Assembly: GCA_017644185.1 (NCBI GenBank)
Contig: JAEPMA010000016.1
Coordinates: 1-64,000, forward strand
DNA: 64,000 nucleotides
From: Rhodospirillales bacterium
GTDB taxonomy: Bacteria; Pseudomonadota; Alphaproteobacteria; Rhodospirillales; Casp-alpha2
Direction: 5' to 3'
In this document: positions 30,183 through 56,010 of the stretch, piece by piece
Position numbering within the stretch: the stretch's first letter is position 1
How the letters are laid out: every line of letters starts with the position of its first letter
The notes under the pieces: generated by a model
The model's input: only the letters and a program-made list of their open reading frames with translations
Told to the model about the DNA's origin: nothing
Databases searched by the model: none
Position numbers and translations under genes: made by a program

Positions 30183-30770
30183 TCAGCGGGCGTTACGGTT
30201 CCTGACGTCGAACAGCGCCTCCCACTGCGCGTTCTGCTGCGAGGCGAAGTCGAAGTGCGTCACGATGTTGGTGACGGTCTCGCCGTCTTTCGACAATGGC
30301 AACCGGATCGACGGCACGATCAGGCGGCGCGCCAGCTCGCGGGTCGACGACGCATCCCAAAGGAACGGCATCGGGGTGCGCGTCTCTATCACGGCCTGGT
30401 AGTCCGCCAGAACCTGCTGACGCCGGTGCTCGTCCAGATATCCCATGTCCGTGGTCAACAACGACTGGCCGGTACGGTCGAAATACAGGACATCCGTCAG
30501 CCCCGTGCCCCAGAACCGGAACGTGACGTCGAAGGGATCGACCGTGATATCGACCACGTGGGAGTACCTGATCCGGTCCCCGGGGAGGCGGATCAGATCG
30601 AACGCGTTCCAGTTGGGCGCGAACCTGTCACCGCGCACGGCATTCCAGTGTTCGTAGATCCCCCGGCAGCCGCTCCCCATCACGTCCTCTAGCGGCACCT
30701 GCACCGACGTGACGGCAACACTCCCAAGCGCGCTATCGGTGCGGCCGTTATATGACAACACCGCCCCCAT
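30183..30770 (-). CDS. PAS_5-type single-domain protein (1 of 5)
   Basis: 195 aa. The core has the pattern seen in all five copies: a helical start with W(N/R)A, a LPGDRIRYSHVVDI block, FRFWGTGLTDVLYFDRTG, and a late PLSKDGETVTNIVTHF strand. No output domain is attached. PAS domains of this type are found in Rhodospirillales; ligand and partners are unknown. The ATG at 30770 lacks a clear Shine-Dalgarno sequence, so the start may be further in. Confidence 0.8.
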   Translation of the reverse strand: MGAVLSYNGRTDSALGSVAVTSVQVPLEDVMGSGCRGIYEHWNAVRGDRFAPNWNAFDLIRLPGDRIRYSHVVDITVDPFDVTFRFWGTGLTDVLYFDRTGQSLLTTDMGYLDEHRRQQVLADYQAVIETRTPMPFLWDASSTRELARRLIVPSIRLPLSKDGETVTNIVTHFDFASQQNAQWEALFDVRNRNAR

Positions 30771-31070
30771 CAACTAGGCGGCACATGGCCATAGGGCCCT
30801 GAGATCGAACCAGGACGAAAGACATTTCACAGACCCAAATTTGCCGCCGGTCTCGGCCGGCGATTATTGGATAAATCTTACGAAGAGGTCCTACATGCGT
30901 AAAGAGCAGGCGCAAACGATGGGACCAGGGCTGCATGCGAATGCGCTCGGCAGCCATGCCGGCTCGACGGCGACGGCAACGTAACCGTCAGATCAATAAA
31001 GACTCGTTTAACGTGTATTTATGTTTATAATAATTAGATAAGTAGTTAAGCGGCTAATACGGAGAACACC
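30771..31070. other. 300-bp intergenic region, AT-rich at its right end
   Basis: The left part shows no convincing gene; a 29-codon frame at 30895-30984 follows GAAGAGG but has no recognisable content. The segment 30990-31045 is strikingly AT-rich for this genome (GTATTTATGTTTATAATAAT) and probably carries the promoter of the small protein at 31071. Confidence 0.5.
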
Positions 31071-31232
31071 ATGTCGAAACCAAGCGCCCCATATTATTAC
31101 AAAGAATCCGGCAGCGACGCGTATCACTGGGAAACGTCGTGCAAAAAGAACCACTACCCGGACAGCGGGTGGAAGAAATCGAATACCTTCCCGTCGGGAC
31201 GGGAACAGTGCGACCAGTGTCAGGCTAAGTAG
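31071..31232 (+). CDS. Small cysteine/histidine-containing protein of unknown function
   Basis: 53 aa, too short for routine gene calls. It is rich in aromatic and charged residues (YYYKESGSDAYHWETSCKK) and ends with GREQCDQCQAK. One Cys near residue 24, His residues and the C-terminal CxxC could make a zinc site. GGAGA precedes the ATG at the proper distance and the upstream region is AT-rich. Codon use is coding-like. I do not recognise the family. Confidence 0.7.
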   Translation: MSKPSAPYYYKESGSDAYHWETSCKKNHYPDSGWKKSNTFPSGREQCDQCQAK

Positions 31233-31244
31233 CCATACTGACGG

Positions 31245-32081
31245 CTAGACCGGCACGTCGCCTTCCAGGCACATACGGTGCAGGATGCGGCCTTCCGACG
31301 GGTCGTAGTCCGTATGCGCGACATGAAGAAGTGCACGGTTGTCCCACACCACAAGATCGCCCGGCCGCCATTTATGGCGGTAGGTAACATCCCGCGTCAG
31401 CACCCGGTCGAGCAGCTTGTTGACGAACGCCTTGCTTTCGGCGGGCTCCCATCCCTCGAACCGCGCCAGCTTGCCCGGGTGCACGTAGATCGCCTTCTTG
31501 CCGGTTTCCGGGTGGGTGCGGATGAACGGGTGGATTTGCGCGGCACCGAACTCCTTGCGGGCCTTGTCGTCGACGTAGCCGACGTCCTGCTCGATGGAGT
31601 TTACCGTCTTCATTTTGATCAGTTCGGCCTGTTCGCTTTCATCAAGGCTGGCGTAAGCCGCCTGCATGTTGGCGAACCCGGTGTCGCCCCCCTTCGACGG
31701 GAGCTTGACGGCATAAAGCACCGTCATCTTCGGCGGTTTCGCATGATTGGTGTGATCGGTGTGCCAGTCGCGCGATCCGATCGGCATGACTTTGCCATCG
31801 TCGCGCTTGGTATTGGCGATGCGGCTGTCGAGGACCGCGATCTCAGGATGCTCGGGCATCAGCAGTTTCGACAGATGCTGGCGCATGGGATCCCCGAAGA
31901 TCCTCATGCTTTCGACATACTGTTTGGGTTCCAGATTCTGATCGCGGATGACGAGGACGAGACGGTCGCGGAGCGCGTCCCGCATGGCACTGGCGTCGTC
32001 TTCGGATACGGGCCCCGACAGATCGACGCCGGTCGCCTCGGCCCCGAACAGATCGGACAATGGTGTCAGATTGACGGTCAT
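31245..32081 (-). CDS. TauD/TfdA-family dioxygenase
   Basis: 278 aa. Fe(II) ligands HxD in DWHTDHTNH and distal His in HVAHTDYD or the HRMCLEGD segment at the end; the 2OG-binding Arg is in ILHRMCL. Taurine/2,4-D-type oxygenases release sulfite or open aryloxy ethers; here no sulfonate transporter is adjacent, so the substrate stays open. Confidence 0.88.
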   Translation of the reverse strand: MTVNLTPLSDLFGAEATGVDLSGPVSEDDASAMRDALRDRLVLVIRDQNLEPKQYVESMRIFGDPMRQHLSKLLMPEHPEIAVLDSRIANTKRDDGKVMPIGSRDWHTDHTNHAKPPKMTVLYAVKLPSKGGDTGFANMQAAYASLDESEQAELIKMKTVNSIEQDVGYVDDKARKEFGAAQIHPFIRTHPETGKKAIYVHPGKLARFEGWEPAESKAFVNKLLDRVLTRDVTYRHKWRPGDLVVWDNRALLHVAHTDYDPSEGRILHRMCLEGDVPV

Positions 32082-32190
32082 GGATGATGCTTCCCTGAAT
32101 TATGTTTTATGGGGCTAAGTCTATTTTCCCGTAAGGCGGACGAAAAGCCCCCGATTTTCATTACCGATCAAAGGCTTGAGTTCAATCACT

Positions 32191-32217
32191 CATACCTATC
32201 AATCAAATAAGATATTT
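32191..32217 (+). promoter_or_regulatory. Possible OxyR-type site upstream of katG
   Basis: ACCTATC at 32194-32200 and GATATTT at 32211-32217 resemble OxyR half sites (ATAG/CTAT pattern) in an AT-rich stretch 155-180 bp before katG. The fit is loose. The rest of 32082-32370 holds no gene. Confidence 0.3.
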
Positions 32218-32259
32218 AAATTATACTTATGAAAAAGAGTCGCGTTAACGTTGTGCTGA

Positions 32260-34542
<2,283 letters not shown>

Positions 34543-34566
34543 TCCCACGATCAGACGTAACGAAAG

Positions 34567-34600
34567 GTGCCGGCCCCATCGCGGGGCCGGTACTTTTTTG
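34567..34600 (+). terminator. Rho-independent terminator of katG
   Basis: Stem GCCGGCCCC / GGGGCCGGT around ATCGC, followed by ACTTTTTTG, 25 bp after the stop. Confidence 0.9.
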
Positions 34601-34658
34601 TCTCAAGGACAGACGAGACAGGCGTGGCCTTATCGCCCCCGGTGTGTAAAGTGCGGCC

Positions 34659-35546
34659 ATGGCCCAACCAACCGATATCGATCCCGCCCAGCACCGGCGC
34701 GGCTTTGCGCTGACGCTTTTCGGCGTCCTGGTGCTGACCCCGGACACCCTTTTGATCCGTCTCATCGATATCGATCCCTGGACCATGAATTTCTGGCGCG
34801 GCGCGATGATGGCGGCAAGTCTGCTGGTCGTTTACGCCGGCGTCCGCCGGAGCGCGTTCTTCAGCGATATCCGGGGGCTCGGCATCGCCGGGCTGAGCGT
34901 TGCCGTGATCTATGCCCTCAACGCCATCAGTTTCGTCTTCGCCGTCGAGAATACCCGGGTCGCCAACGTTCTGATCATCCTTGCCGCGACGCCCCTGATC
35001 GCCGCGCTTTTGTCGGTGATCGTGCTGCGCGAGCGGGTGGCGGGGGCCACTTGGGCGGCCATCGCCATGGGGATGGCGGGCGTCGTCATCGTCGTCGGCG
35101 ACGGGCTCAGGGCGGGGACCTCGCTGGGCGATGTCTTCGCACTGGTCACCGCGTGCGCGCTGGCCGTGACGTTCATCATCATCCGCCGCAACCGCCACGT
35201 GAACATGGTCCCGGCGGCGGCGCTGGGGGCGCTCCTGTCGGCGATCATCGTCGCACCGCTCGCCGACCCGATGGCCGTGCCGTCCGGCAACTGGGGACTG
35301 CTTCTATTGTTGGGATTCGTCGTCATGCCCGTGTCTTTCGGATTGATCACGCTCGGCCCCCGCACCCTGCCCGCACCCGAGGTTGCGTTGCTGATGCTTC
35401 TGGAGACGGTCCTCGGGCCGTTGTGGGTCTGGCTGGTGATCGGCGAAGCGCCGAGCGACACGACCTTCATCGGCGGCGTCATCGTGATTTCCGCGGTCGT
35501 GCTGCAATCGGCGTGGCGGTTGCGCCGTCGCCGCGCCGCCGCGTAA
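34659..35546 (+). CDS. EamA/DMT-family transporter (second)
   Basis: 295 aa with ten hydrophobic segments in two EamA repeats (FVFAVENTRVANVLI, MPVSFGLITLGPRTLP). Inner-membrane metabolite exporter of unknown substrate. The C-terminus is a short Arg-rich tail (RLRRRRAAA). It is distinct from the DMT protein at 25875. Confidence 0.87.
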   Translation: MAQPTDIDPAQHRRGFALTLFGVLVLTPDTLLIRLIDIDPWTMNFWRGAMMAASLLVVYAGVRRSAFFSDIRGLGIAGLSVAVIYALNAISFVFAVENTRVANVLIILAATPLIAALLSVIVLRERVAGATWAAIAMGMAGVVIVVGDGLRAGTSLGDVFALVTACALAVTFIIIRRNRHVNMVPAAALGALLSAIIVAPLADPMAVPSGNWGLLLLLGFVVMPVSFGLITLGPRTLPAPEVALLMLLETVLGPLWVWLVIGEAPSDTTFIGGVIVISAVVLQSAWRLRRRRAAA

Positions 35547-35651
35547 GTCAGCCGGCCGTTCAAGAAACCTTCATCCGGACGAAACGGATCTGAGACGGTT
35601 TCCGCGCAGGGTTTCCCGATCTACGATCCCCTTGAACGACGGAGACGCTCC

Positions 35652-36869: not shown

Positions 36870-36881
36870 AGCCTGGAAAGC

Positions 36882-37343
36882 TTATTCTGGGATGACTTCC
36901 AGATCCTTCAGGGCGCCGAAGTTCTCGGCGTGCTTGCTCATCTGCGCGACATAGACCCGCATCTTCAGGTCACTGTGCAGGATGTGGCCGACCAGCCAGT
37001 CGTGCAGAAGATGCGCGGTCTCGGCGTGCACCCGGTCGAGATGCGCGTCGTCGGTCTCTTCGAGATGTAATAGGACGTCATCCAGCGCCTTGATCAGTTC
37101 CCGGTGCTCCTGGTGGTGGTCGGCGGCATCCGGATAGTTGACCATGTTCTGTAGCTGCTCTTCGCGGCCGAAGTGCGTTTCGGTATAGAACTTGAGGGCG
37201 TACAGGACTTCCCGCGCCTCGCCCCTGCTGAGCCCGTCCGCCGCCAGCGTTTCGAAGCGATTGATGATCTCGATCAAGTGTCTGTGGTCCTGGTCGATGA
37301 TGCCCCCATCGTCGATCGACATCTTCTCTCGCCATTCGATCAT
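36882..37343 (-). CDS. Bacteriohemerythrin 1
   Basis: 153 aa, one hemerythrin four-helix domain. Diiron ligands: DQDHRHLIEIIN, THFGREEQL, HHQEH and HILHSDLKM. Bacteriohemerythrins bind O2 reversibly, as sensors, stores or carriers. Fifteen bases separate it from the second hemerythrin upstream, so the two form an operon. Confidence 0.9.
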   Translation of the reverse strand: MIEWREKMSIDDGGIIDQDHRHLIEIINRFETLAADGLSRGEAREVLYALKFYTETHFGREEQLQNMVNYPDAADHHQEHRELIKALDDVLLHLEETDDAHLDRVHAETAHLLHDWLVGHILHSDLKMRVYVAQMSKHAENFGALKDLEVIPE

Positions 37344-37358
37344 GAAAAGGTTCCCTGA

Positions 37359-37976
37359 TTATTCCTGGCAGAACAGTTTCCGCGCATCCGTCATCTCCTT
37401 CTCATCCAAGCGTTCCTCGAACGCTTCGACAAGGGAAGAAAGCTCCTTCGCCAGCGGATCGTCAGAAATCAGGATGCCGACAAAACGTTCGACGATATCG
37501 CGCTTGTTCTCCGGCACACGAACGCTGACGTCGTTGAGGCGCGCCGTCTGATCGGGGATGCGGTCGTCTTTCTCGCCCCTGAGATAGGGCACGTAGTCCA
37601 TGTCCGTCTTCATGATGTGGCCGGAAAGCCAGCGGTTCAGAAAGCGGCCGAGTTTGACCGGGTCGATCCGCTCGTCTCCTTTGCGATAGATGTCGCGCAG
37701 GCAGCGGACACGCCGCTGCATGGCGCGGTGCGTGCGGAGGTGCTCTTCGGTCCCTGGATAGCCGGCCTGGATCATGAAGGTTTCCTCGCGCTTGAAATGC
37801 TCCATCACATAAGTCTCGAGGCAGATGATCGCCTGCTCGATTTCAGCCGCGCTTTGATCGCGCACAAGCGCGTCGGTGAGATTGCCGATCTCCTCGAAGA
37901 GCGTCTTGTGGTCGCGGTCGATGACCTTGATCCCGGTCTCGAACTTGTCGGACCAGGCGGGGAGTTGCTCGGACAT
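37359..37976 (-). CDS. Bacteriohemerythrin 2 with C-terminal extension
   Basis: 205 aa from the ATG at 37976 (AAGGAAA upstream). Residues 1-135 are a hemerythrin domain (DRDHKTLFEEI, EHFKREETFM, HLRTH, HIMKTDMDYV). A charged helical extension of about 65 residues follows, ending LFCQE, which is absent from the neighbouring copy. An FNR-like box lies 79 bp upstream. Confidence 0.88.
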   Translation of the reverse strand: MSEQLPAWSDKFETGIKVIDRDHKTLFEEIGNLTDALVRDQSAAEIEQAIICLETYVMEHFKREETFMIQAGYPGTEEHLRTHRAMQRRVRCLRDIYRKGDERIDPVKLGRFLNRWLSGHIMKTDMDYVPYLRGEKDDRIPDQTARLNDVSVRVPENKRDIVERFVGILISDDPLAKELSSLVEAFEERLDEKEMTDARKLFCQE

Positions 37977-38048
37977 ATCCAATTTCCTTACGCTTCGGCG
38001 GCTGTCACCGCCATCGGAGAGAACATAGCCATCTTCCCCGAACATGCC

Positions 38049-38062
38049 GTGATCTATATCAA
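38049..38062. promoter_or_regulatory. FNR/FixK-type box between hemerythrins and the DM13 gene
   Basis: GTGATCTATATCAA, or TTGATATAGATCAC on the minus strand, fits TTGAT-N4-ATCAA except the last base. It lies about 79 bp from the hemerythrin start (minus) and about the same from the DM13 start (plus), so it could serve either; the hemerythrins are the more logical target. Confidence 0.55.
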
Positions 38063-38134
38063 TTCCCGGCAAGCAGTTGCGGGTCCGGCCCGGCGCGGGC
38101 GATACTCCCTCAACGCGTTTTACCGGAGGGTCGC

Positions 38135-40136: not shown

Positions 40137-42302
40137 TCAGCCCATCTGGGCGGCCGCCTGCACCTCCTTCGGGTAGGCGTTTAGGGCCGCATCGACCGTC
40201 GCGCGGATATGCTTCAGGAACTCCTTGGCATAACCGTCGATAAGCTCTTCGGGCGTGCCCTTGAGAACCACCATATGCCGGGCTTCGGTGTTCAGCCGCC
40301 GGGCCGCCATGACCCTCGCCAGTTCCATCTGCAGATCGGGCCGGTCCTTGATCGCGTTCACGATCGGCCAGCGATCGAGCATGAACACCTCGCAGGCCGT
40401 GAACGCCACGACGCTGGCGATCCGGCTTTGCCCGGTCAACGCCGACATCTCACCGAATATCTCGTTCTCGGATAGTGTCGCGACCGGGCTCATCATGCCC
40501 TCGCTGTCGGTGATCCGAACCTCGACCGTGCCCGAAATGATCCCGTACACCACGTTGCCCGCATCCCCTTGCTTGATCACAGTCTCATCGGCGGCATAGT
40601 GCTCGATCCGCGCGTGGGTGAGGATGTTGGCAAGTTCGGGATGCGGGAACGTCTTGAAGATGTCGGTCTTTGACAGGATCTCAAGCGGCGTCAGCTTGGT
40701 GTTCTGCTTCTTGCGGTACCACCTGGGGACCAGGAAGCCGATACACAGACCAAGTGTCCCGTACATCGTGCAGATGCGCAGGTACGGCGCCGATTTCGCG
40801 CCCGGATCGACAACGCCCCGCAGATAGACGACGACAATACCCACGGCGATCATCGCGAGACACAGGAACAGCGCCTCGACGACGCGACGGCGCTGCCCGA
40901 GGACGGCGACCGTCTTTTCCATAGCGCCCATCTTGGATCGATCACCACGGCGCTGGGCGAACCTGCTGATCGCGCCGCCCAACCGTCCGTCCAGCAACAT
41001 CGTCAGGAGGAACGCGAACAGAACCGGCCCCAGGCCCCAATGCCATTTGGTCTCGTAATGCGTCAGCAGCGCATCCAGGTAGCCCGGTCCATCGACCCGG
41101 ATCAGCTTGAACAAACCGCTGATGACCATCCAAGCCGCAGCCGCGAACAACGCTGCCAGTACATAAGTGCCGAACGGGGGCACCCCCTCCGATTCCGGCC
41201 CGCGGCCCTTCGACACCAGATTCTCCGCCGTCATGATCGAGATCAATGTCGCCGACGTGAACAGGATCATCAGCATGACCGGCAGCCGGATCAGCCGTTG
41301 CACGCTGACGTCCTGGCTCCCCTGTGACAGCAGGATCGAGGTTGCCGCGATCACGAATACGATCAGCGCCACGGCGACGACCTCGTTCACGTTGCTGGTC
41401 CAGGTTCCCTCTTTCATATCCTTGAAACCGATATTGAAGAGCCGGTTACGGCACTTCGACATCTGAATCTCGGAATGGAGAAGACCACGCGCCAGCAGGA
41501 TCGACATTTTGTCGAACAACGCCTCGCACTCCTCGGTGATGCTTTCGCGGATGTCGTTGATGGGATTGTCGACGGCCGTTTCGAAGTCGGACTCTTCCGC
41601 TTCGAGTTTCTGTTCGTAGTTCATCAGCCGGCGGATGCGGTTACCGATCCGGTCGATCTCGCTCTTGATCGCAGCGATCTCGTCACGGTTATGTCCATAG
41701 AACTTCGAATACCCGGTTTCATTGGGCCAGCCTTCGAATTCGTTGATGACGACCAGGGTCTTCATCCACAGGTCCCTGAGCTGCGTCTTTTCCGTGCGGC
41801 GGAACGTATCCAGGTCGAAGTCCATCCGCCGCGTCAGCGGCCGAAGCCGGTTGACGACGTCTTCGGTCTCGCTGAACGTCGCACGGCGGATTTCGGCACC
41901 GATATGCCGTGCGGCATGGGGAATGGCGGCCATCGTCTGGAACAACGTCCGGAGCCAGTCATCCGGTTTCGCGAGGAAATCGAGACGGCGCAGCAGAATG
42001 GTCAGAAAGAGCGCCGCGACAAGCTCGGGCGAGAGGGAATCGATGATCTGCTTGACGTCCACCCCGGCGCCGAAGTCGGCCAACGCATTGACGCGCGTCG
42101 ACGCCAGCACCTGCAGCAGGATGGTAGATTTCGCCAGCAGCACATAAATAAAGACGACACTGATGTAATAGATGATCGAGAACGTCCAGAACCGCCACCA
42201 CGTGGTCATCGACCGGTTGGTTTTCGGCGTGTTGAACCTTTCGTAAGCGTAGACCAGAACAAAAACCGCACCGATTACGCCATCAACGGTAAGGAAATTC
42301 AT
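40137..42302 (-). CDS. Multi-pass membrane protein with C-terminal cyclic nucleotide-binding domain
   Basis: 721 aa. Two or three N-terminal membrane helices (residues about 5-70), a long helical cytoplasmic region with a coiled-coil look (80-290), six further helices (295-540), and a cyclic nucleotide-binding domain (about 550-680) with the phosphate-binding cassette FGEMSALTGQSRIASVVA, including the Arg. The architecture is not a channel I recognise: no voltage-sensor repeat or selectivity filter is seen. GGGAGAGG precedes the ATG. Confidence 0.8.
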   Translation of the reverse strand: MNFLTVDGVIGAVFVLVYAYERFNTPKTNRSMTTWWRFWTFSIIYYISVVFIYVLLAKSTILLQVLASTRVNALADFGAGVDVKQIIDSLSPELVAALFLTILLRRLDFLAKPDDWLRTLFQTMAAIPHAARHIGAEIRRATFSETEDVVNRLRPLTRRMDFDLDTFRRTEKTQLRDLWMKTLVVINEFEGWPNETGYSKFYGHNRDEIAAIKSEIDRIGNRIRRLMNYEQKLEAEESDFETAVDNPINDIRESITEECEALFDKMSILLARGLLHSEIQMSKCRNRLFNIGFKDMKEGTWTSNVNEVVAVALIVFVIAATSILLSQGSQDVSVQRLIRLPVMLMILFTSATLISIMTAENLVSKGRGPESEGVPPFGTYVLAALFAAAAWMVISGLFKLIRVDGPGYLDALLTHYETKWHWGLGPVLFAFLLTMLLDGRLGGAISRFAQRRGDRSKMGAMEKTVAVLGQRRRVVEALFLCLAMIAVGIVVVYLRGVVDPGAKSAPYLRICTMYGTLGLCIGFLVPRWYRKKQNTKLTPLEILSKTDIFKTFPHPELANILTHARIEHYAADETVIKQGDAGNVVYGIISGTVEVRITDSEGMMSPVATLSENEIFGEMSALTGQSRIASVVAFTACEVFMLDRWPIVNAIKDRPDLQMELARVMAARRLNTEARHMVVLKGTPEELIDGYAKEFLKHIRATVDAALNAYPKEVQAAAQMG

Positions 42303-42576: not shown

Positions 42577-43083
42577 ATGCTCGATCAGGAATCTACCCCC
42601 GTCGCCTATATCAACGGCACCGCGGAGGATTGCACCGCACCGAAGACCCTTCGCCTCATCGAATACTGGCGCGCACGCATGCCGTCTGACGGCGGGCTGC
42701 CGTCCTGGCGGGACTTCGATCTGATGGATCTTTACGACATCGCCGCCGCGCTCGCGGTCAAGGACGTGATCGACGGCGGGAACGACTACATCAACCGGTT
42801 CTGGGGCACCAGCCTGACCGTCGCACTCGGCTTCGAGGGGACCGGCAAGCTGGTCAGCACATACGAGCCCGTCAGCATGCGGAACGCGGTTTCAAAGCGG
42901 TACGGCAACGTGGTGCGGAACCGCGAAACGTCGATGGCGCGGGGATATATCTCGACCATGCCGGGGCGTGAGTTCCTGACGTTCGAGCTTGTCCACCTGC
43001 CGTTACGCGGCAAATCGGACGAGGTCGAGCACATTATCTCCGCCTATCACTTCGGCCTGGCGCTGCCCGAGGGGTTCGGCTGA
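42577..43083 (+). CDS. PAS_5-type single-domain protein (2 of 5)
   Basis: 168 aa. Core features: LIEYWRARMPSDGGLPSWRDFDL, an INRFWGTSLTVALGFEGTG block, and the final PLRGKSDEVEHIISAYHF strand. No output domain. It converges on an EAL phosphodiesterase gene 12 bp away. Confidence 0.8.
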   Translation: MLDQESTPVAYINGTAEDCTAPKTLRLIEYWRARMPSDGGLPSWRDFDLMDLYDIAAALAVKDVIDGGNDYINRFWGTSLTVALGFEGTGKLVSTYEPVSMRNAVSKRYGNVVRNRETSMARGYISTMPGREFLTFELVHLPLRGKSDEVEHIISAYHFGLALPEGFG

Positions 43084-43095
43084 GCCCGGACGCCT

Positions 43096-43872
43096 TCAGG
43101 CAAACGACAAATCCGGAAGCGGTAATTTTTCGATTTCCGGCTTGGCGAACAGGTAGCCCTGGAAGTAATCGGCGCCGATCTCGCGAAGAACCTCGTAATC
43201 CTCGACCGTTTCCACACCCTCGGCGATGACGCGGATATCAAGGGCGTGCGCCGTGTTGACCGCGCCTTCGGTAATCGTTTTCTTGATCCGGTCGCCGGCA
43301 ATGCCGTTACAGAGTTCCATATCCAGTTTGAGGATCTGCGGGCTGAACTGGTTCAAGAGATTGAGCCCCGCGTATCCCGCACCGAAATCGTCGATCGCGG
43401 TGATGAAGCCGCGGTCCCGGTATTCCTCAAAAATCCCCATGAGATGCGCCGGATCCTTGACCGGCTCCGCCTCGGTCACTTCGAAGATGATCCGATTGAC
43501 GGGAAGGTCGAATTCATCCGCCGCCTGCATGGTGGCACGAATGCAGGTTTCCGGCCTGTAAACCGCGTTGGGCAGGAAATTGATCGAAAGATTGCACTCG
43601 ATCCCGAGCGCCGACGCGATCTGGATCGCTTTCACGCGGCAGGTCTGGTCGAAGGTGTACCGGTTGTCGTCGGTCACGTGTGACAGCACCTGCCCCGCAC
43701 CGGCACCATCCTTCCCCCTGACCAGGGCTTCATAAGCGAACACCGTCTTGTCCACGGGATCGACGATCGGCTGGAACGCCATCGTGATATCGAGGTCGAG
43801 GGGCCTGGCCTCCAGACATTGCTTGCAGCCAAGCGGTTTGAAATCGGGGAGATTGTCAAATTTGGTCGTCAT
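43096..43872 (-). CDS. EAL-domain c-di-GMP phosphodiesterase
   Basis: 258 aa, essentially one EAL domain after a short CKQCLEARPL segment. Catalytic set intact: YEALVRG, NLSINFLPN, IIFEVTEAEP, AIDDFGAGYAG, LKLDMELC, VIAEGVET and YFQGYLF. It should hydrolyse c-di-GMP. It lacks its own sensor domain; the adjacent PAS protein is a candidate partner, by position only. Confidence 0.93.
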   Translation of the reverse strand: MTTKFDNLPDFKPLGCKQCLEARPLDLDITMAFQPIVDPVDKTVFAYEALVRGKDGAGAGQVLSHVTDDNRYTFDQTCRVKAIQIASALGIECNLSINFLPNAVYRPETCIRATMQAADEFDLPVNRIIFEVTEAEPVKDPAHLMGIFEEYRDRGFITAIDDFGAGYAGLNLLNQFSPQILKLDMELCNGIAGDRIKKTITEGAVNTAHALDIRVIAEGVETVEDYEVLREIGADYFQGYLFAKPEIEKLPLPDLSFA

Positions 43873-43990: not shown

Positions 43991-44518
43991 TTAATCGGTA
44001 TGGCGTTGGCCGTATTCGCGCAGGTGTTCCTCGCGGATTTTCTGATGATCGCGGCTCCAGTCGACATAGGTCGCGATCTGGTCGACGCGCGAGCCGTCGT
44101 CCGAGAACGGCATGCGGAGCGACGTCTGCACATACGGCAGGCCGTTTTCCCCCGCCTTGATCATGTATTCCGAGCCGACCGCCTCGTGACACTCGACCAC
44201 CTCCAAATACTGATCGCGCGTTTGCTGCGCCGTGACCGGCGAGCGGATCGCGTTGATCGAGAGATTGGTGAAATCCTTACCATGCAGATCGACGGACGCC
44301 GTCCCATAGAATCGGTAGACGAAATCGAGCGGGTCGTAATTAACATCGACCACCAGAAAGTAGGGGATCAACGTCGTCGGCAACTGAAACCAGTCCCATT
44401 CCGCCCAGCGGGGCGAGGCGCGATCGCCCTTGAGCCTGAGCCAGTATGCGTAGGCCGCCTGATAGTTCGGTTGATCGAACCGGACCGGCGACCGTCGAAG
44501 ATAGTCTTCCTGAGCCAT
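43991..44518 (-). CDS. PAS_5-type single-domain protein (3 of 5)
   Basis: 175 aa from the ATG at 44518; starts at 44557 or further up are possible. Core: AAYAYWLRLKGDRASPRWAEW, PLDFVYRFYGTASVDLHGKD (Trp replaced by Tyr in the FWGT motif), and PFSDDGSRVDQIATYVDW. A near-ideal Fur palindrome lies 107-131 bp upstream, so the gene is probably iron-regulated. Confidence 0.78.
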   Translation of the reverse strand: MAQEDYLRRSPVRFDQPNYQAAYAYWLRLKGDRASPRWAEWDWFQLPTTLIPYFLVVDVNYDPLDFVYRFYGTASVDLHGKDFTNLSINAIRSPVTAQQTRDQYLEVVECHEAVGSEYMIKAGENGLPYVQTSLRMPFSDDGSRVDQIATYVDWSRDHQKIREEHLREYGQRHTD

Positions 44519-44624
44519 GCGATATCCAGCTATGCCGCCTCGCGCGTTGTTTAGCATCAACGCCTGCGCTTCATATAATAAATAGTGCGCCGCAGCATGA
44601 ATTTCGCCTCCGCAATAATACGTA

Positions 44625-44649
44625 TTGCAAATGATTCTCATTTGCAATA
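44625..44649. promoter_or_regulatory. Near-ideal Fur box in a divergent promoter
   Basis: Perfect 11-bp arms (ATTGCAAATGA and its complement) around TTC. The core GCAAATGA/TCATTTGC with a 3-bp centre is the classic Fur box of many proteobacteria. It lies between a PAS protein gene (minus) and a small four-cysteine protein gene (plus, start 35 bp away). Confidence 0.85.
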
Positions 44650-44683: not shown

Positions 44684-44941
44684 ATGTCAGCCGTTGTCGC
44701 CATCATGCTGGTCGCCGCCTGCGATCCCGACCTCCTCCATTGCCTGCCCGTGTTTCACTGGGACAAAACCTGGATGACGGTGAACGAATGCCGCCAGGAC
44801 CGCCATCACGTCGCCGCCATCGTCGACACGCGCTTCGATGGGAAGAAGACCGTCATGACGGACTGCCGGCTATATCTGGATGAACATCGCGCCATGCCCC
44901 GCCCGACACCCGCCATCACCGACGGCCCGGCACTTTTCTAG
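44684..44941 (+). CDS. Small four-cysteine protein under a Fur box
   Basis: 85 aa. A short hydrophobic N-terminus (MSAVVAIMLVAACDP) may be a signal or a lipobox-like end, though it has no basic residues. Cysteines at about 13, 20, 37 and 62. No family recognised. It starts 35 bp after a near-perfect Fur palindrome, so iron limitation should raise its expression. Confidence 0.7.
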   Translation: MSAVVAIMLVAACDPDLLHCLPVFHWDKTWMTVNECRQDRHHVAAIVDTRFDGKKTVMTDCRLYLDEHRAMPRPTPAITDGPALF

Positions 44942-49129: not shown

Positions 49130-50614
49130 TCAGTAAGGCAGCGTCACATAGACCGCCGTGCCGATATCGGCTTCGCTGGAAATCGTCAGCGTCCCGCCAT
49201 GCGCCTCGACCAGCGACTTGACGATGGAAAGACCGAGCCCGGTACCGCTCTCGGCGACATGCGGGTTGGACTGCCCCTTCGCGAACGGCTCGGTGATCCT
49301 GGCTAACAGCTCCCCCGAGATACCGACCCCGGTATCGGTCACGCAGACGGTCAGCTCGTCCGCTTTCACACGCACGCAGACGCCCACCGCACCCCCGGCC
49401 TTGGTGAATTTGACCGCATTGGCGAGGATGTTGAGGAAGATCTGCGCCACCGCTTTGCGGTCGGCGTGCAGTTCGGGCATGTCGTCCGGAATCTCGAGGT
49501 CGAGCGTGATGTCGCGATCCGCCGCCGACTGCTGAACGTTTCTCAAGCAATCCTTGAGCACCTCCGAGAGGGCGAAGTGCTCTTTCTGCAAAGACCGCTT
49601 GCCCGCTTCGATGGCGGCGATATCGAGGATTTCATTGACCAGGCGAAGCAGGTGCTCGCCGCTGTCGTGAATGTCGTTGGCGTACTCCCGATAACTGTCA
49701 GCACCCAGCGGGCCGAAATATTCGCCCCGCAGCATCTCGCTGAACCCCAGGATCGCGTTCAGGGGCGTGCGGAATTCGTGACTCATCGTGGCGATGAACT
49801 GCGACTTGGCGCGGTTCGCCGCTTCCGCATCCGCCAACGCCTCGCGCATCGCGTCTTCGGCCTTGATCAGATCGGTCAGATCGACGCTGATCGATCCAAC
49901 TTTCGTAATCCGGCCGTCACGGTCGTGGATTGGAAACTTGGTGATGCCGATCGTGTGGGGCTTGCCGTCGACGAAGTAGCGTTCGACCTGCCGATAAAGC
50001 GGCTTGCCGCTGGTGATCACATCGTCCTCCTGCGCATTCATGACGCGGGCGTCGTGGTCGGGCTGGAAGTTCTCGATATGATCCGAGCGATGGCCGACCA
50101 TGTTCTCGAGGTCGGCGCCGTACCATGACAGGTACGCCCGGTTGGGCCGCTCGATGACGTGGTTGCTGTCCTTGATCAGAAGCCCGAAGGGCAGGTTTTC
50201 GAAGATCGAATCGAGCATGCTCTCGTTGTCGCGGAGCGCTTCGCTGCGCGCTTCGATATCGCGCAGTTGGCGGGTGAAGTGAACGGCGATCAGAACCAGT
50301 CCCGCGAACACCAGAACGGCAAACAACAGATAGGCGTACCAGCTGTAGTGATAGTGCAGCGACACGACAACGTCGTTCGCCCGTTTCAGACCTAAGATGC
50401 CGGGCAGCGCCACGTTGGCGAACAGGTTGGCCGCGAACAACAGCGTCACGACCCAGAGACCGCCGAGCACGCAGGCCACGCCGACGAGCGCGCCGCTTCG
50501 CCTGAGGTCGTCGCGGCGGTTAACGACGACGACACTTGCTGCCAGCGCGATCGCGATCAACAGAATGTCGACGCCGATCATCGCCCCCCAAGGCGGTAGT
50601 AGGCTATACGTCAT
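49130..50614 (-). CDS. PAS-domain membrane histidine kinase
   Basis: About 494 aa from 50614 (earlier GTG/ATG starts possible). Three N-terminal membrane helices, a PAS domain (residues 120-250), HisKA with H in ATMSHEFRTPLNAILGF, and HATPase with NILANAVKF, DTGVGI and GTGLGLSIVK. No response regulator is adjacent, so it is an orphan kinase. Confidence 0.92.
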   Translation of the reverse strand: MTYSLLPPWGAMIGVDILLIAIALAASVVVVNRRDDLRRSGALVGVACVLGGLWVVTLLFAANLFANVALPGILGLKRANDVVVSLHYHYSWYAYLLFAVLVFAGLVLIAVHFTRQLRDIEARSEALRDNESMLDSIFENLPFGLLIKDSNHVIERPNRAYLSWYGADLENMVGHRSDHIENFQPDHDARVMNAQEDDVITSGKPLYRQVERYFVDGKPHTIGITKFPIHDRDGRITKVGSISVDLTDLIKAEDAMREALADAEAANRAKSQFIATMSHEFRTPLNAILGFSEMLRGEYFGPLGADSYREYANDIHDSGEHLLRLVNEILDIAAIEAGKRSLQKEHFALSEVLKDCLRNVQQSAADRDITLDLEIPDDMPELHADRKAVAQIFLNILANAVKFTKAGGAVGVCVRVKADELTVCVTDTGVGISGELLARITEPFAKGQSNPHVAESGTGLGLSIVKSLVEAHGGTLTISSEADIGTAVYVTLPY

Positions 50615-50721
50615 CCCAACTTCGTGCCGGCACATGAACGAAGACGGCACCTCTCCCCGCGAACGATTATATCGACCTTATGCGCGCGGAACAGAGGTTT
50701 TGGCGATTTTGGCGCGTGATG

Positions 50722-51621
50722 TCAGGCCTTGCCGGGACGGCGGAACTTCACACCGAGGGCTTCTTCGTAGACTTTGAGCATGGCGCTTTTCGGCTCGTCC
50801 CCGTAACCCGCCTCGATCGCCGCCTTGTAACTGCCGACCATGGCGTCGACGACAGGCAACGCCGCGCCGGTGTCTTCGGCCATGCGCTCGACGTTGACGA
50901 TGTCTTTATAAGCGGCGCTGAGGGTGAAGTCGGTGTCGAACAATCCATCCAGCATGCGCGGGACGAAATATTCCGACGCGAAGCTGCGCGACGAGCCGCT
51001 CATCACGATCTCGGCGACCTGTTCGGGGTCGAGACCGACGGCGACGGTCAACGGCAGCACCTCGGCCAACGCCGCGATGTTGACGTTGTAGATGATGTTG
51101 TTGAGGGCCTTCATCGCCTGACCGGTCCCGACAGGACCGCAATGAATGACCGACGTGCCGACCTGCTCCAGATATGGCTTCACCATCTCGAACGCGTCGT
51201 CGGCGCCACCGAACATGACCGTCAGGGTGCCGTCCTTGGCGCGGAACGGCATGCCTGAAATCGGGCAATCCCAATAAGTGATACCCAGGGCCTTGGTTTC
51301 ATCCGCGAACTTCAACGCGTCGGTCCGGTCCAGCGTTGTCGTGTCGACGACGGTCAGCCCGTCGGGTTTGGCCTGCGCGATCCCGCCGTCCCCGAAGATC
51401 GCGGTCCGGACTTCGGGGGCGTACGGAAGGCACATGAAGATCAGCTCGCACGACTTCGCCATTTCGGCGGGCGATTTACAGGCCACTGCGCCCGCTTCGA
51501 CCAACGGGCGCATCGCGCCTTCGTGCGCGTCATAGACGCTGAGCGCGCCGTTCTTTTTAAGCATGTTGAGCGCCATGCCCGCGCCCATGCGGCCAAGGCC
51601 GATAAATCCGATATTCTGCAC
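50722..51621 (-). CDS. NAD(P)-dependent 3-hydroxyisobutyrate dehydrogenase-family protein
   Basis: 299 aa with a GTG start and AGGAC upstream. Rossmann motif GFIGLGRMGAGMALNM, substrate loop DCPISGMPFRAKDGT and catalytic Lys in GTGQAMKALNN. Beta-hydroxyacid dehydrogenase; the substrate could be 3-hydroxyisobutyrate, tartronate semialdehyde or similar. Confidence 0.9.
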   Translation of the reverse strand: MQNIGFIGLGRMGAGMALNMLKKNGALSVYDAHEGAMRPLVEAGAVACKSPAEMAKSCELIFMCLPYAPEVRTAIFGDGGIAQAKPDGLTVVDTTTLDRTDALKFADETKALGITYWDCPISGMPFRAKDGTLTVMFGGADDAFEMVKPYLEQVGTSVIHCGPVGTGQAMKALNNIIYNVNIAALAEVLPLTVAVGLDPEQVAEIVMSGSSRSFASEYFVPRMLDGLFDTDFTLSAAYKDIVNVERMAEDTGAALPVVDAMVGSYKAAIEAGYGDEPKSAMLKVYEEALGVKFRRPGKA

Positions 51622-51698
51622 CGGTGTCCTCCCGAGACTTGTGATGTCGGTGCAGTTTAAGGAGCCGCCGGGGCGTCAACAATGCCGATGATCGGCTG

Positions 51699-52187
51699 TC
51701 AGCGTTCGTCCCAGGTGGCGACGGAAATCACGTGGTGAACGTCGATGCCGTCGTTGGAGAGGGGGAAGCGGACGAGCGACTGCTCGAACGGGATCAGGCG
51801 GCCGAAGTCGTTCAGATCGACCATATCGCGGGACGCGATGGGTTTTTTGTTCAGGACCACCCACTCGTACTCCCGTTCCGCCGTGGTGCCGCGAAAATCC
51901 GGCTTGGCGCCGATCAGCTTGCCGGTCTTGTCGATGCCCTTGCGCTGGGTGTGCTGGGTGCCCCAGAACCGGATAAGGAACCTGAGCGGATTGTGAAGCA
52001 CGTCGCTGACGACAATATAGGGGATGATCTTGGGGTCGAGTTCCTCAAGATAAACGTCCCGCCATGTCGGCGCGAAGCGCGCCCCCCGAAGATCGTCCCA
52101 ATAACGATAGAAAGACATGATGCCGGGCGTCGCCACCTCTTCGATGGTGAGCCATGCCAGATCGCTTTTGCCGGTGCGGCGCGACAT
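51699..52187 (-). CDS. PAS_5-type single-domain protein (4 of 5)
   Basis: 162 aa from the ATG at 52187 (GGGTGG upstream). Core: IMSFYRYWDDLRGARFAP, a RFLIRFWGTQHTQRKGID block, and PLSNDGIDVHHVISV. No output domain. An FNR-like box with a well-spaced TAAGAT -10 lies upstream. Confidence 0.8.
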   Translation of the reverse strand: MSRRTGKSDLAWLTIEEVATPGIMSFYRYWDDLRGARFAPTWRDVYLEELDPKIIPYIVVSDVLHNPLRFLIRFWGTQHTQRKGIDKTGKLIGAKPDFRGTTAEREYEWVVLNKKPIASRDMVDLNDFGRLIPFEQSLVRFPLSNDGIDVHHVISVATWDER

Positions 52188-52224
52188 GCTTGTTTCCACC
52201 CGCTCCGTTTCTTCGTGTTGGGTG

Positions 52225-52265
52225 ATCTTACCCCAAGATACGCCCTGATCGTTGATTTAGATCAG
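52225..52265 (-). promoter_or_regulatory. FNR-type promoter of PAS protein 4
   Basis: TTGATTTAGATCAG (52252-52265), read on the minus strand as CTGAT-CTAA-ATCAA, fits TTGAT-N4-ATCAA with one mismatch. TAAGAT at 52225-52230 is at the expected -10 distance for a class II site centred at -41.5. Confidence 0.6.
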
Positions 52266-52381
52266 ACCTTTGATCGCACCCATCGCCGACTAACGCCCGA
52301 TGCCCGAAAAATGCTATGATTCCCGGCATGAGATTCGCGCGGCCGCCTTGGCCGCCGATCAGGTTATTTGGGAGTTTAATC

Positions 52382-52891
52382 ATGGCCCCGAACAATAAAA
52401 ACGCCGACAAGAACACATCCAATGAAAATGACGCCGTCCTGCCCGACATCGTCCCTTCCGCGCTCGACGACAACACCCACGCCGAGATGCGGGCTTTATA
52501 TGTTGAGAGCACGGAAACGCTGCGCTTCGTCAAGACCCACCAATGGAAGACGGTCGGCGCGACCCTGCTGACATTTCTGGCGCTGATTTTCATCGCCGGC
52601 TTCATCGGCGCCGACAAGCCGCTGACCCAGAAGTTCATGGCAATCACCATCCTGATGACCACGTCGGTGATCTTCACCCTCATCATCTACCAGTTCTGGA
52701 TGCACAACGAGGCGCGCAAAATCGACGCCTTGTCCGACCACATGTCCAGCCTGTTCCAGGAAATCCGCGCCATCAAATCCAAGCGCGAGGGCAACCTGCA
52801 CCGTTACACGCTTCTGATCTTCATGATCACGTGCATCGTCTTCGGCGCCGTCGTCGTGCACCTGTCGCTCTCACAGGTCGCTGGCGGCTAG
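52382..52891 (+). CDS. Membrane protein of unknown function
   Basis: 169 aa from the ATG at 52382 (GGGAG upstream). A polar N-terminus, two membrane helices (about 60-105) and one near the C-terminus (140-162), with an amphipathic stretch between. No family recognised. Confidence 0.75.
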   Translation: MAPNNKNADKNTSNENDAVLPDIVPSALDDNTHAEMRALYVESTETLRFVKTHQWKTVGATLLTFLALIFIAGFIGADKPLTQKFMAITILMTTSVIFTLIIYQFWMHNEARKIDALSDHMSSLFQEIRAIKSKREGNLHRYTLLIFMITCIVFGAVVVHLSLSQVAGG

Positions 52892-52918
52892 ACCGGATCG
52901 GCAATAATCCTTAGTTGA

Positions 52919-54805
52919 TCAGTCCGGATCGGGGACGATCCGGAGCGGCAGGATGTCGCTGTCGACGGTGATGATGTCGTCGGCGTCGGCGCGGATACAT
53001 GCGCCCGCGTAGGTGCCCGACGCGGTAAAGGTGCAGACCTGCACGTTCTTGCCGTCGATCTTGGGGAGCGGGAACATCGCCTGGTAGATCTGGTCTCTGT
53101 CGTCGAACTTGCCCGCCGTCTCCGAGACCACGTTTTCGTCGGCGTCGATGATGGCGATGTTGTGTCCGCAGCGCCCGACGATCGGCTTCACCACGTAGCC
53201 CGTGGCGCGGAGGTCGTCGTCGAGGTCGAAGCTGGTTTTGAGGAGATACGGATGATCGGGGTAGAGCATCCATAAAACGGGAAGGATCGCCTTGTTGGAC
53301 GGGATCAGCGTCCAGAGCGGCTCGAACACCATCACTTCGGGCCTCAGCAAAACATCGACCAGGCGCGGCGCCTCGACCGCCCGGTCGATGGTCTTGTGGA
53401 GGCGCAGGTTCTCCTCGTCTTCTGAAATCTGATCGCGGATCTGGTCGAGCGCCGTTTCCCACGCCCACGTCTTCCACACCCAGTCGATGTGGCGGCCTTC
53501 CTCGTCGGCGACCTGCCCGTCGTCGCCCCATTTCAGGCTCGAAACGCCCCTGACGACGGCGCACGGAATGCCCGCCGCCTCGATCGCGGATTTCATGTAC
53601 TGGGCGTGATAGGTCTCTTCGAGATCCCTGTCCTGCATGATGTGAAGGAACGCGCCGGCGGCGGATTCCTTCCACGCGTCGACCAGCTCCCTGTGCAGCC
53701 GTGAACCGGCCGAGCGCCCGTCGTTACAACCGTAATGCTGCGCCCACAGGTCCTGCACCTTCCCCGTTTCCATATGACAGGATGCGGAATCGCAGTTGTA
53801 CTCGTAGACCTTCAGACCCCGTGACGAGAGCGAGAAATCGAACCGCCCGGTGATCATCTCGTTGCGGCGATTGTCCCAGGATTGATGAATTCTGGACCAG
53901 ATCGCGGGCGGCAGGTTGAAGCGCCTCAGGAGTTCGTCGTCCTGCAGGACGAAATTGGTGGCGTGCATGAACATCGCATGCAGCTCGTTCGTCGCGCGCT
54001 TGAGTTCCTGGTTCGCGGTCTCGGTCAGGCACAGATATTTGAAGCGGTCGTTATCATCCTCGGCGAGCTTGCAGCCCTCCATGGAAGCGATATAGGCGGC
54101 TTCGTCGGCATTGTCGGTATCGAGCCACCCCTCCGTGGACTGTCCCGTGTCCGGCACTTCGCGGGCGATCAGGTCGAACAGTTCGGGGTTCACGTCCTCG
54201 ATAATCTCGGCGTGCGTGGCATCGTCGGTCTGGATCACCCAACCCATGATCCCCGCATCCTCGAACGTGCAATCGATCCAATAGCCGCCGTCGTCGCCGA
54301 TGGTGACGCTAAGCTCGCGCGACCAGGTCTGACCGTCCGGCCAGATCTTGTCCTCGACGTTCTGTTCGACGACGCGCACGCAGTCGTCGGTCACCTCCGT
54401 CACCACCGCGACGTGGCCGGTGACGTCGAACTCGCCGCCCTCGTTCCAGATCAACAGGCAGCCGGCCTCGGGCCGACGTTTGGCGCCGTTGGCGAACGAC
54501 TTCAGGGGGAGTTTCGAATTGTCGTCGGTCCGGGTCACGAACCTGAGACGGAAGATATCGTAGGCCATGGCGATATCGTCGAAGACATACCCGCGATTGA
54601 CGTAAAGCCAACGCCTGGCGAGTTCGACGCATTGCCACTTATAGCCCATGAACTGGCCGGCGACGTAACTGCGGTATGCCTGGCGGTTAGGCAGATCGGT
54701 CTTGTCGGCGCTCGGGTAATGGCTCGAATAAACCTCGACGCCGCCCTCGGCGATACCGAGACACGTGCCGAACTTTTCGCGGTGCTGAACGTCCAGGTTA
54801 CCCAT
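52919..54805 (-). CDS. gss: Bifunctional glutathionylspermidine synthetase/amidase
   Basis: 628 aa from the ATG at 54805 (AGGAAG upstream). N-terminal CHAP amidase: with this start the catalytic cysteine in YKWQCVELARRW is Cys59 and the histidine in TGHVAVVTEV is His131, the same numbers as in Escherichia coli Gss, which supports the start. The C-terminal ATP-grasp-like synthetase half follows (WSRIHQSWDNRR, EYNCDSASCHMETG, KPIVGRCGHNI). It makes and breaks glutathionylspermidine. Confidence 0.93.
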   Translation of the reverse strand: MGNLDVQHREKFGTCLGIAEGGVEVYSSHYPSADKTDLPNRQAYRSYVAGQFMGYKWQCVELARRWLYVNRGYVFDDIAMAYDIFRLRFVTRTDDNSKLPLKSFANGAKRRPEAGCLLIWNEGGEFDVTGHVAVVTEVTDDCVRVVEQNVEDKIWPDGQTWSRELSVTIGDDGGYWIDCTFEDAGIMGWVIQTDDATHAEIIEDVNPELFDLIAREVPDTGQSTEGWLDTDNADEAAYIASMEGCKLAEDDNDRFKYLCLTETANQELKRATNELHAMFMHATNFVLQDDELLRRFNLPPAIWSRIHQSWDNRRNEMITGRFDFSLSSRGLKVYEYNCDSASCHMETGKVQDLWAQHYGCNDGRSAGSRLHRELVDAWKESAAGAFLHIMQDRDLEETYHAQYMKSAIEAAGIPCAVVRGVSSLKWGDDGQVADEEGRHIDWVWKTWAWETALDQIRDQISEDEENLRLHKTIDRAVEAPRLVDVLLRPEVMVFEPLWTLIPSNKAILPVLWMLYPDHPYLLKTSFDLDDDLRATGYVVKPIVGRCGHNIAIIDADENVVSETAGKFDDRDQIYQAMFPLPKIDGKNVQVCTFTASGTYAGACIRADADDIITVDSDILPLRIVPDPD

Positions 54806-54988
54806 GCCCACTTCCTGCGGCCGGCGTGGCCGGTCCGTTCGATCATTCGATTGTAAAAGAAAAAGAACCCGGCGCCAGCGCCGGAAACGCGCGTATAATT
54901 ACCGAAGCGGAAGTTTACACAAGTGAAAAAAATCGGGGGGTGTTGTGGCGCGTCGATGACGGCGCTTGCCCGACCCGGCCCCCTCATC

Positions 54989-55020
54989 TGTCCTCTCCCC
55001 CACACGTGTGGAGGAGAGGA
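54989..55020. repeat. Near-perfect 32-bp palindrome
   Basis: Sixteen-base arms with one mismatch meet without a spacer (GTCCTCTCC...CACAC, then GTGTG...GGAGAGGAC). It resembles the CTCTCCCC-type intergenic palindromes of alphaproteobacteria. It lies between gss and a small secreted protein gene, with no T-run. Confidence 0.65.
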
Positions 55021-55071
55021 CCCGGTGCAAACGTTATCACCGGCTTGGAGGTGAGATGTCAGAGCGTTCGC

Positions 55072-55323
55072 TTACTTGATGCCGAGGATCTTCTCGGCTT
55101 CCGAGAGCGCCTTCATCGATTCATCGTGCTTGCCGTTCTTGTGCATGGCTTCACCCTTGGCGCGAAGCCCTTTGACCTTAGCCATGTCGGCCTTGGAGAG
55201 TTCGGTCGTCTTGAGCGCCTCGTCGATCGCTTTCATGTGTTTCGGGCATGAGCTGGCGAACGCGGCGGAGGATGCGAAAAGCATAACGGCGGCGGCGATA
55301 CTTGCGAAAAGACGTGTCTTCAT
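55072..55323 (-). CDS. Small secreted helical protein
   Basis: 83 aa with a signal peptide (AAAVMLFASSAAFASS). The mature 60 residues are charged and helical (KHMKAIDEALKTTELSKAD, KHDESMKALSEAEKIL) with one cysteine. No family recognised. Confidence 0.75.
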   Translation of the reverse strand: MKTRLFASIAAAVMLFASSAAFASSCPKHMKAIDEALKTTELSKADMAKVKGLRAKGEAMHKNGKHDESMKALSEAEKILGIK

Positions 55324-55473
55324 AGTGTAGTTTCCTTTACTTCCTGCCGGCACATGCCGGACTTTGTTCCCCGCGTCGGCGGCAACCTGAAGTTGGGTTG
55401 CCCCTGGCGGACAATCTCAGCGTACGCCCAAATGTGACGTTCTTGAGGCGGGACGCTGAAAGTCACAGTTAAG

Positions 55474-56010
55474 TCACACCTGCCAGAGCGGCTTCGCGCC
55501 GGCGATGGGATTTTCGGTCTCGTCCGCGAGGGCATAGCCGGACAGCACTTGGCGGACAGAACCATCCTTTATCAGCGGCAGGTCGATCCCGTGAACGACG
55601 ATATGCCCCCTGTTGAGCGCCCTGAGATCGCCGCTGATGAAACCGATTCCGCCGACGTCGCGCAGGATTCTGAAATACGGGCCCTCGAACTTCTCCCAGT
55701 TTTCCTCCCGGTTCCGGTAAACATCCGACATCTTTTTGCGGGTGTAATCGTGCCCCCACCACTCGGTAAGTGTCGTGCCCCAGAGGGCGAACTCGATATC
55801 GAACGGATCGTCCAGGATATCGGCCAGCGACAAACGGCCCCACCATCCCGCGAAATCCTCGGCGATATCGAAGTCGCGCCAGCTCGGGTATCCTTGACCG
55901 CCGCCCTTGCCGCGCCACAACTTGACCAGTGGCGCGAACATCCCGAACATTTCTGAATCGAGGTCGTCCGCGAATATCCGATACGTCCAGCCCTTGATGT
56001 TGCGGTTCAT
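55474..56010 (-). CDS. PAS_5-type single-domain protein (5 of 5)
   Basis: 178 aa. Core: LVKLWRGKGGGQGYPSWRDF (compare copy 2), DIEFALWGTTLTEWWGHDYT (FWGT degenerates to LWGT), and LIKDGSVRQVLSGYAL. The C-terminus is slightly longer than the others. No output domain. Confidence 0.78.
   Translation of the reverse strand: MNRNIKGWTYRIFADDLDSEMFGMFAPLVKLWRGKGGGQGYPSWRDFDIAEDFAGWWGRLSLADILDDPFDIEFALWGTTLTEWWGHDYTRKKMSDVYRNREENWEKFEGPYFRILRDVGGIGFISGDLRALNRGHIVVHGIDLPLIKDGSVRQVLSGYALADETENPIAGAKPLWQV

Follow-up and report, generated by a model that had tools for sequence, protein, structure and literature searches.

Five stand-alone PAS_5-type proteins encoded at one Rhodospirillales locus are old paralogues of a multi-copy family and may act as sensor-adaptors

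Why are five small proteins that look like sensors encoded within 26 kb of one another when none of them carries an output domain? This question is raised by positions 30,183 to 56,010 of a 64,000-nucleotide stretch of contig JAEPMA010000016.1 from a Rhodospirillales bacterium (assembly GCA_017644185.1, positions 1 to 64,000 of the forward strand), which is referred to here as the window. A first-pass annotation made from the letters alone proposed that the five genes, called W1 to W5 below, encode PAS_5-type sensor modules which respond to iron, oxygen or redox through partner proteins, and that they are the best local candidate for an undescribed signalling system. The explanation favoured here, to which we give about an even chance, is that the five are old paralogues of a single-domain PAS_5 (MopJ-type) family and likely soluble sensor-adaptors that act in trans in the manner of MopJ. 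The genes at the locus do not make up an operon, nor do they look like a dedicated system.

All five open reading frames are present, and their starts, as well as those of the neighbouring genes, were taken from a codon-usage gene caller. W1 (30183..30770, minus strand) encodes 195 amino acids (aa), W2 (42577..43083, plus strand) 168 aa, W3 (43991..44518, minus strand) about 175 aa, W4 (51699..52187, minus strand, with a possible GTG start at 52199) 162 aa, and W5 (55474..56010, minus strand), which diverges most among them, 178 aa. The longest frame of W3 extends to 44647, and the resulting 218-aa reading is probably too long, because the alignments with three orthologues start only at codons 42–44. 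The caller predicts no gene at two further loci (L043 and L053) and misses a second, broken copy at L045, since PAS_5 genes score low in it. With the likely starts, the proteins span 162–195 aa and contain no other Pfam domain over cut-off, which agrees with the description of 160–195 aa proteins devoid of a kinase, GGDEF, HTH or enzyme domain. The motifs said to be shared held in part: (R/A)(F/L)(W/Y)GT is found in all five, but P(L/F)xxDGxxV is exact in three of five (the protein at 42577 lacks the DG, and the one at 55474 is one residue shorter), and W(R/D) occurs in three, though the W itself is kept in all five.

The five proteins are members of one family. A profile built from 20 paralogues, all from elsewhere in the same genome and with the broken copy (L025) excluded, was run against 576 stop-to-stop frames of the window and 5000 shuffles of the five proteins, and it matches W3 (E 2.5e-38), W2 (2.3e-37), W4 (1.1e-34), W1 (2.1e-33) and W5 (1.2e-19), while the best shuffle reaches E 0.57. 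The best non-member is the histidine kinase at 49130 (E 6e-4), whose PAS_4 domain resembles the family to this extent but is fused to HisKA/HATPase, whereas the domain stands alone in the window proteins. In a leave-one-out test all 25 members are recovered, the worst with E 6.7e-14. A search against PF07310, which had been suggested as a check, succeeds for the proteins at 42577 (22.7 bits) and 43991 (24.7 bits), which exceed the gathering cut-off of 22 bits, but the other three have no match at E≤1. Among the 25 members scanned, 12 match PF07310 at E≤1 and 13 do not, and six places in the whole genome match at E≤0.001, all of them over the cut-off; the Pfam model under-detects the branch that holds the window members. 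PAS_4 is matched at E≤1 by four of the 25, and the NCBIfam MopJ model (NF051868) by all 25, with a best E of 4.7e-12 but below its equivalog cut-off. Judging from these scores, the five appear to be divergent members of the PAS_5 family and not orthologues of MopJ.

A sequence search for solved relatives returns two matches only, both chance-like with E of about 0.5. The fold was read from AlphaFold2 models of W3 and W5. In both models (W3, from a 10-row alignment: predicted local distance difference test, pLDDT, 78.9 and predicted template modelling score, pTM, 0.75; W5: pLDDT 75.3, pTM 0.75) strands and helices follow one another as in PAS domains, and in the W3 model terminal helices flank the PAS core. 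Foldseek comparison of the two models with the PDB places PAS and LOV domains first (E 3.6e-4 and 5.9e-4), so that the two modelled members do not diverge into unrelated folds. Short LOV proteins without an output domain (RsLOV, PpSB1-LOV) are among the best matches of W3 and W5 alike and resemble the window family as single PAS-fold proteins; however, the family has no conserved adduct-forming cysteine and, unlike heme PAS domains of the FixL/DosP type, no conserved proximal histidine. Among 163 columns and 69 rows of the family alignment there is no conserved Cys column (highest frequency 12%) and no conserved His column (highest frequency 23%), so the family as a whole shares no flavin adduct of the LOV type and no heme histidine, although a single member could bind heme despite the lack of a family-wide His. 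The invariant residues of this alignment, with gaps ignored, are W69, P79, G115 and P180 in the numbering of the long W3 frame. Columns that vary between orthologous groups and are kept within them are more frequent among the cavity-forming elements of a PAS domain, its strands and long helix (10 of 29, versus 4 of 49 elsewhere, P 0.005), in an exploratory test with thresholds chosen after the table was viewed. The 14 group-specific positions, counted in W3 from the Met at 44557, are 68, 91, 92, 96, 109, 110, 112, 113, 129, 131, 144, 160, 165 and 174.

The descent of the genes explains their closeness. A maximum-likelihood tree was built from 69 members of three congeners (25 rows from the genome itself, 30 from G001 and 14 from G003), leaving out the broken L025, the own-genome matches C3:24832 and C26:166855, and those G001 and G003 matches that have no listed places. 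It consists largely of orthologous groups with long stems, and W1–W5 need five separate placements, which argues that no local duplication took place and that their closeness reflects inherited gene order rather than local amplification. Nineteen orthologous groups, each present in at least two of the three congeners, were picked by eye from the tree, with rows lacking a clear partner left out, and identity averages 70% inside a group and 22% from one group to another. Among the window members there are orthologues of W1 in G003 (L055, 72% identity), of W2 in G001 (70%) and G003 (64%), of W3 in G001 (76%), G002 (70%) and G003 (71%), and of W4 in G001 (77%). W5 is without an orthologue in G001 and G003, its nearest row being the L027 group, and has a 44% relative in G004 (L073). 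The ratios of nonsynonymous to synonymous substitution (dN/dS) are 0.15 for W1, 0.22 for W2, 0.15 for W3 and 0.19 for W4, compared to 0.18 for the kinase at 49130, 0.06–0.12 for most neighbours tested and 0.15 for one hemerythrin; these ratios are rough, because dS is about 1 or more for the pairs used. For three of 16 pairs (W2 and W3 against G003, and one hemerythrin) saturated dS made the ratio incalculable. W1–W4 are under purifying selection.

The five are part of a much larger repertoire. The genome holds 26 matches to a profile of the five members and 28 to a profile of 25 members, which answers the call for a genome-wide count; one of the 28 is broken by an in-frame TAA (C11:338459) and one is weak (C26:166855, 42.7 bits). 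In the broken copy (C11:338459-338905; L025, L045) the TAA lies right after the RYWGS motif, and the gene, which directly follows an intact copy at 337858, looks to be decaying. Seven congeneric genomes hold 2 to 40 matches each, and other genomes of the taxonomic family 0 to 26. Across the order, 106/225 genomes match at E≤1e-5; across the class, where the threshold was E≤1e-8, it is 91 of 241 genomes, of which 28, the present one among them, have at least 14 matches. Multi-copy repertoires are thus class-wide, and the possession of many copies is not special to the window: the claim of five in one window stands insofar as the five genes are of one family, but they belong to a genome repertoire of 28 matches, and such multi-copy genomes are common in the class. 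When 26 genes were scattered at random 20000 times, five members fell within 26 kb in 10 cases, a result that overstates the surprise because the window was picked for its cluster and gene order is inherited. A lineage-specific expansion was also considered and dropped, as many other families of the class have members with at least 14 matches.

Fusion to an output domain was looked for in eleven loci with long frames (L103, L147–L156) and found in none of them. Two are PAS_5–PAS_5 tandems from G338 and G411 (L152:1802-2962 and L153:1469-2533), and one is a GAF–PAS_5 frame from G453 (L150:1782-3023). L147, L148, L149, L154 and L155 contain PAS_5 only in Pfam and, like L103, look like chance open frames, while the frames found at L151 and L156 measure 220 and 175 aa versus the listed 393 and 357 aa.

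Do the surroundings of the five genes tie them to iron, oxygen or a particular partner? Between W3, whose likely start is about 105 bp away, and a divergent small open reading frame at 44684 lies a palindrome (44623..44649, no strand assigned) whose arms measure 12 bp and whose core resembles a Fur box. Its core AATGANNNTCATT has two occurrences in the window versus 0.06 expected, and a second Fur-like core in the window is AATGATAATCATT (5701-5713). The strict 19-base Fur consensus has no match with up to three mismatches anywhere in the window, and the palindrome was not found within 300 bp upstream of the three W3 orthologues (G001, G002, G003). Upstream of W4 there is an FNR-box-like site with one mismatch (52252..52265, no strand assigned), which was not found within 300 bp upstream in the G001 orthologue or the apparently frame-broken G006 copy; a further one-mismatch site, immediately before the shorter W3 start, is likewise missing at the W3 orthologues examined. 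The FNR-like site TTGATCTAGGTCAA at 30108-30121 lies 63 bp upstream of a universal-stress-protein (Usp) gene (29521-30045) and not upstream of the gene at 30183. When no more than one mismatch is allowed, FNR-like sites number nine in the window versus 0.55 expected by mononucleotide shuffling, and codon usage may be behind part of this excess, several sites being in coding sequence. Since the sites are missing at the orthologues examined, an iron or oxygen role is without support beyond single sites; together with the unmatched strict Fur consensus and the lack of a conserved His or Cys, this speaks against the proposed response to iron, oxygen or redox.

G001 and G003 share a collinear backbone with the region of the five genes, and single PAS_5 genes are gained or lost within it. 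W1 is kept in G003, W2 and W3 in both G001 and G003, and W4 in G001; a W1-grade match was not found in G001, nor a W4 orthologue at the collinear site in the fetched G003 stretches. No remnant of W5 was found at the same site in G001 and G003, where the flanking open frames are 123 or 154 bp apart, and the G001 locus carries two further PAS_5 genes. The neighbours are not fixed: the G003 stretches contain W2 and W3 with no EAL gene found and W1 with no Usp gene found, and they keep orthologues of the kinase (49130) and of a dehydrogenase (50722) without W4. In G001, W2, W3 and the EAL gene stay together, and a PAS_5 gene adjoins the orthologous kinase; in the window, W4, the gene at 50722 and the kinase stand in a row on one strand. 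Elsewhere in the genome, 30 predicted proteins encoded by neighbours of the non-window copies (23 of 30 first neighbours and 7 others) were scanned. Two LysR proteins, one kinase, one cyclase and one SpoIIE phosphatase were found among metabolic, transport and housekeeping genes, and no recurring family of interest was present in this set except LysR. Four same-strand adjacent kinase/PAS_5 pairs were noted, L044:5065-7113 (own contig C11), G001:C4:1464351-1465698, L055:14434-15776 (G003) and L056:10764-13027 (G001), the first two of which are probably orthologous; such pairs are a lead only.

How might proteins of this kind work? Caulobacter crescentus MopJ (CCNA_00999), which has orthologues in Brucella, Agrobacterium and Sinorhizobium, consists of a single PAS_5 domain (PMC4432633). 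It is associated with the kinase DivJ by co-immunoprecipitation and TAP, affects the placement of DivK and DivL and raises CtrA, and its own polar placement requires PopZ and DivJ (PMC4432633). The statement that single PAS_5 proteins have no assigned role consequently does not hold, since MopJ, which is one, binds DivJ (PMC4432633). Among open-licence papers, a literature search by the accession PF07310 found none, and one for "PAS_5 domain" found the MopJ paper only. The window proteins resemble MopJ in having a single PAS_5 domain, about 160–200 aa and no output domain; they differ in that their family lies below the equivalog cut-off and has 28 divergent matches in this genome, and in that DivJ binding and polar localisation are reported for MopJ and hypothetical for the proteins of this genome. 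By analogy, MopJ appears to be the best model for their mode of working.

On this model, each paralogue would be a soluble cytoplasmic sensor-adaptor whose PAS cavity binds a small ligand of its own or registers one cellular state, and it would relay the signal in trans to other signalling proteins with which it docks. Histidine kinases that bear PAS domains or are of the DivJ/PleC type may be the likeliest targets, together with the CtrA phosphorelay, as for MopJ in Caulobacter, and the paralogues might have a common docking surface and differing ligands. The family, the fold of two members, the descent and the selection on W1–W4 are results of the analysis; ligand binding, docking and targets are inferred. 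The earlier idea of sensors that act through partner proteins is retained to this extent, as one family, a PAS fold and the missing output domain are consistent with it and partners are the best guess, but its local pairing with the EAL protein and the kinase is not. PF10090 and PF10691, which we take to be the ChpT and PopZ families, respectively, are each matched once over cut-off in this genome. The PF10691 gene has a PAS_5 gene at a distance of about 3.4 kb (L042; G000:C1:14228-18282); with 28 copies this is possible by chance, but in Caulobacter the polar placement of MopJ depends on PopZ.

Several observations weigh against the sensor-adaptor explanation. The equivalog cut-off of the MopJ model (200 bits) is passed in none of 100 genomes of the order, the present one included, where the best score is 45.3 bits, and the consulted passages of PMC4432633 name no ligand for MopJ. 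The DivJ model is the second-best NCBIfam match of the kinase at 49130, which counts in favour of the explanation; however, this similarity concerns the kinase core, is far below the model cut-off and is close to the TorS, PnpS and LuxQ scores. The group-specific columns were placed by PAS element and not by model coordinates, and they may or may not face the cavity. In addition, kinases are not significantly enriched near PAS_5 genes: with 144 HisKA domains and 72 PAS_5 genes (28/28 own, 30/40 G001 and 14/17 G003 matches), a HisKA domain lies within 1.5, 2.5 and 4 kb of 5, 6 and 9 of the 72, versus 2.6, 4.2 and 6.4 expected (P 0.13, 0.25 and 0.20). On the same strand the raw counts are 4, 5 and 7.

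The two explanations that start from the locus itself fare poorly. A local iron, oxygen or redox system made up with the EAL protein (43096) and the orphan kinase (49130) could claim the Fur-like palindrome upstream of W3, the FNR-like sites upstream of W4 and the shorter W3 start, the same-strand row of W4, 50722 and the kinase, and the arrangement in G001, where W2, W3 and the EAL gene stay together and a PAS_5 gene is beside the orthologous kinase. These sites were not found at the orthologues examined, though, and in the G003 stretches W2 and W3 occur without the EAL gene, W1 without the Usp gene, and both the kinase and 50722 without W4. Kinases do not lie significantly closer to PAS_5 genes than expected (P 0.13 at the closest distance), and there is no conserved His or Cys. 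Such a system is largely refuted and very unlikely, the EAL protein and the kinase lose their standing as designated partners, and the collinear congener loci together with the proximity test speak against a local system with EAL or kinase partners. A recent tandem amplification without individual functions would account for the close packing, the tandem pairs elsewhere in the genome and the broken copy at C11:338459, but it is refuted by the five separate placements in the tree and is hardly credible next to a between-group identity of 22% and dN/dS of 0.15–0.22 for W1–W4.

The other two explanations concern what the whole family does. The paralogues might combine with one another as PAS–PAS heterodimers, so that the output of this combinatorial network would be its blend of partners, with kinases as no more than a part of its end points. 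The 28 matches to one family in one genome would suit such a network, as would the terminal helices that flank the PAS core in the W3 model and the natural PAS_5–PAS_5 (G338, G411) and GAF–PAS_5 (G453) frames, in which the domain is seen paired with sensors; nevertheless, single gains and losses between close species suggest that the partners are not obligate, and we regard this network as unlikely. Alternatively, the proteins might buffer, store or transport small molecules without signalling, with which the lack of an output domain and of a fixed neighbour and the group-specific columns in cavity-building elements are compatible. PAS domains are overwhelmingly sensory, which weighs against this proposal. 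So does the regulatory role of MopJ, the one relative for which a study was found (PMC4432633), and buffering is accordingly rated as improbable.

Some neighbours of the five genes deserve a brief description. The best NCBIfam match of the EAL protein (43096-43872) is by far RimA, a phosphodiesterase named as a regulator of S6 modification, with 317 bits versus a cut-off of 430. A 721-aa protein (40137-42302) ends in a cyclic-nucleotide-binding domain and, as judged by eye, has hydrophobic stretches near its N-terminus; outside the C-terminal domain it matches no Pfam family over cut-off. Two adjacent hemerythrin-like proteins are encoded on one strand at 36882-38072 and are kept in G001 and G003 (61–81% identity); the Pfam scan covered the one at 36882.

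To conclude, the sensor-adaptor explanation can be extended to a plug-in layer, in which about 28 one-domain PAS sensors with their own ligand pockets would use one docking surface to reach a common DivJ/PleC or CtrA hub. We consider this extension doubtful, but if it were true, a lineage could add or drop cell-cycle and stress inputs by way of single small genes while leaving its kinases untouched, and the result would be a many-input receptor built unlike the fused sensor kinases. As far as the literature searches show, the family is a large and little studied sensory repertoire. Because the paralogues are old, many of them one-to-one between species, those tested under selection and none found tied to a neighbour, counting receptors by their fused domains may miss a large part of the sensory repertoire in such bacteria. 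The orthologous groups and their group-specific positions make searches for ligands and partners directly designable.

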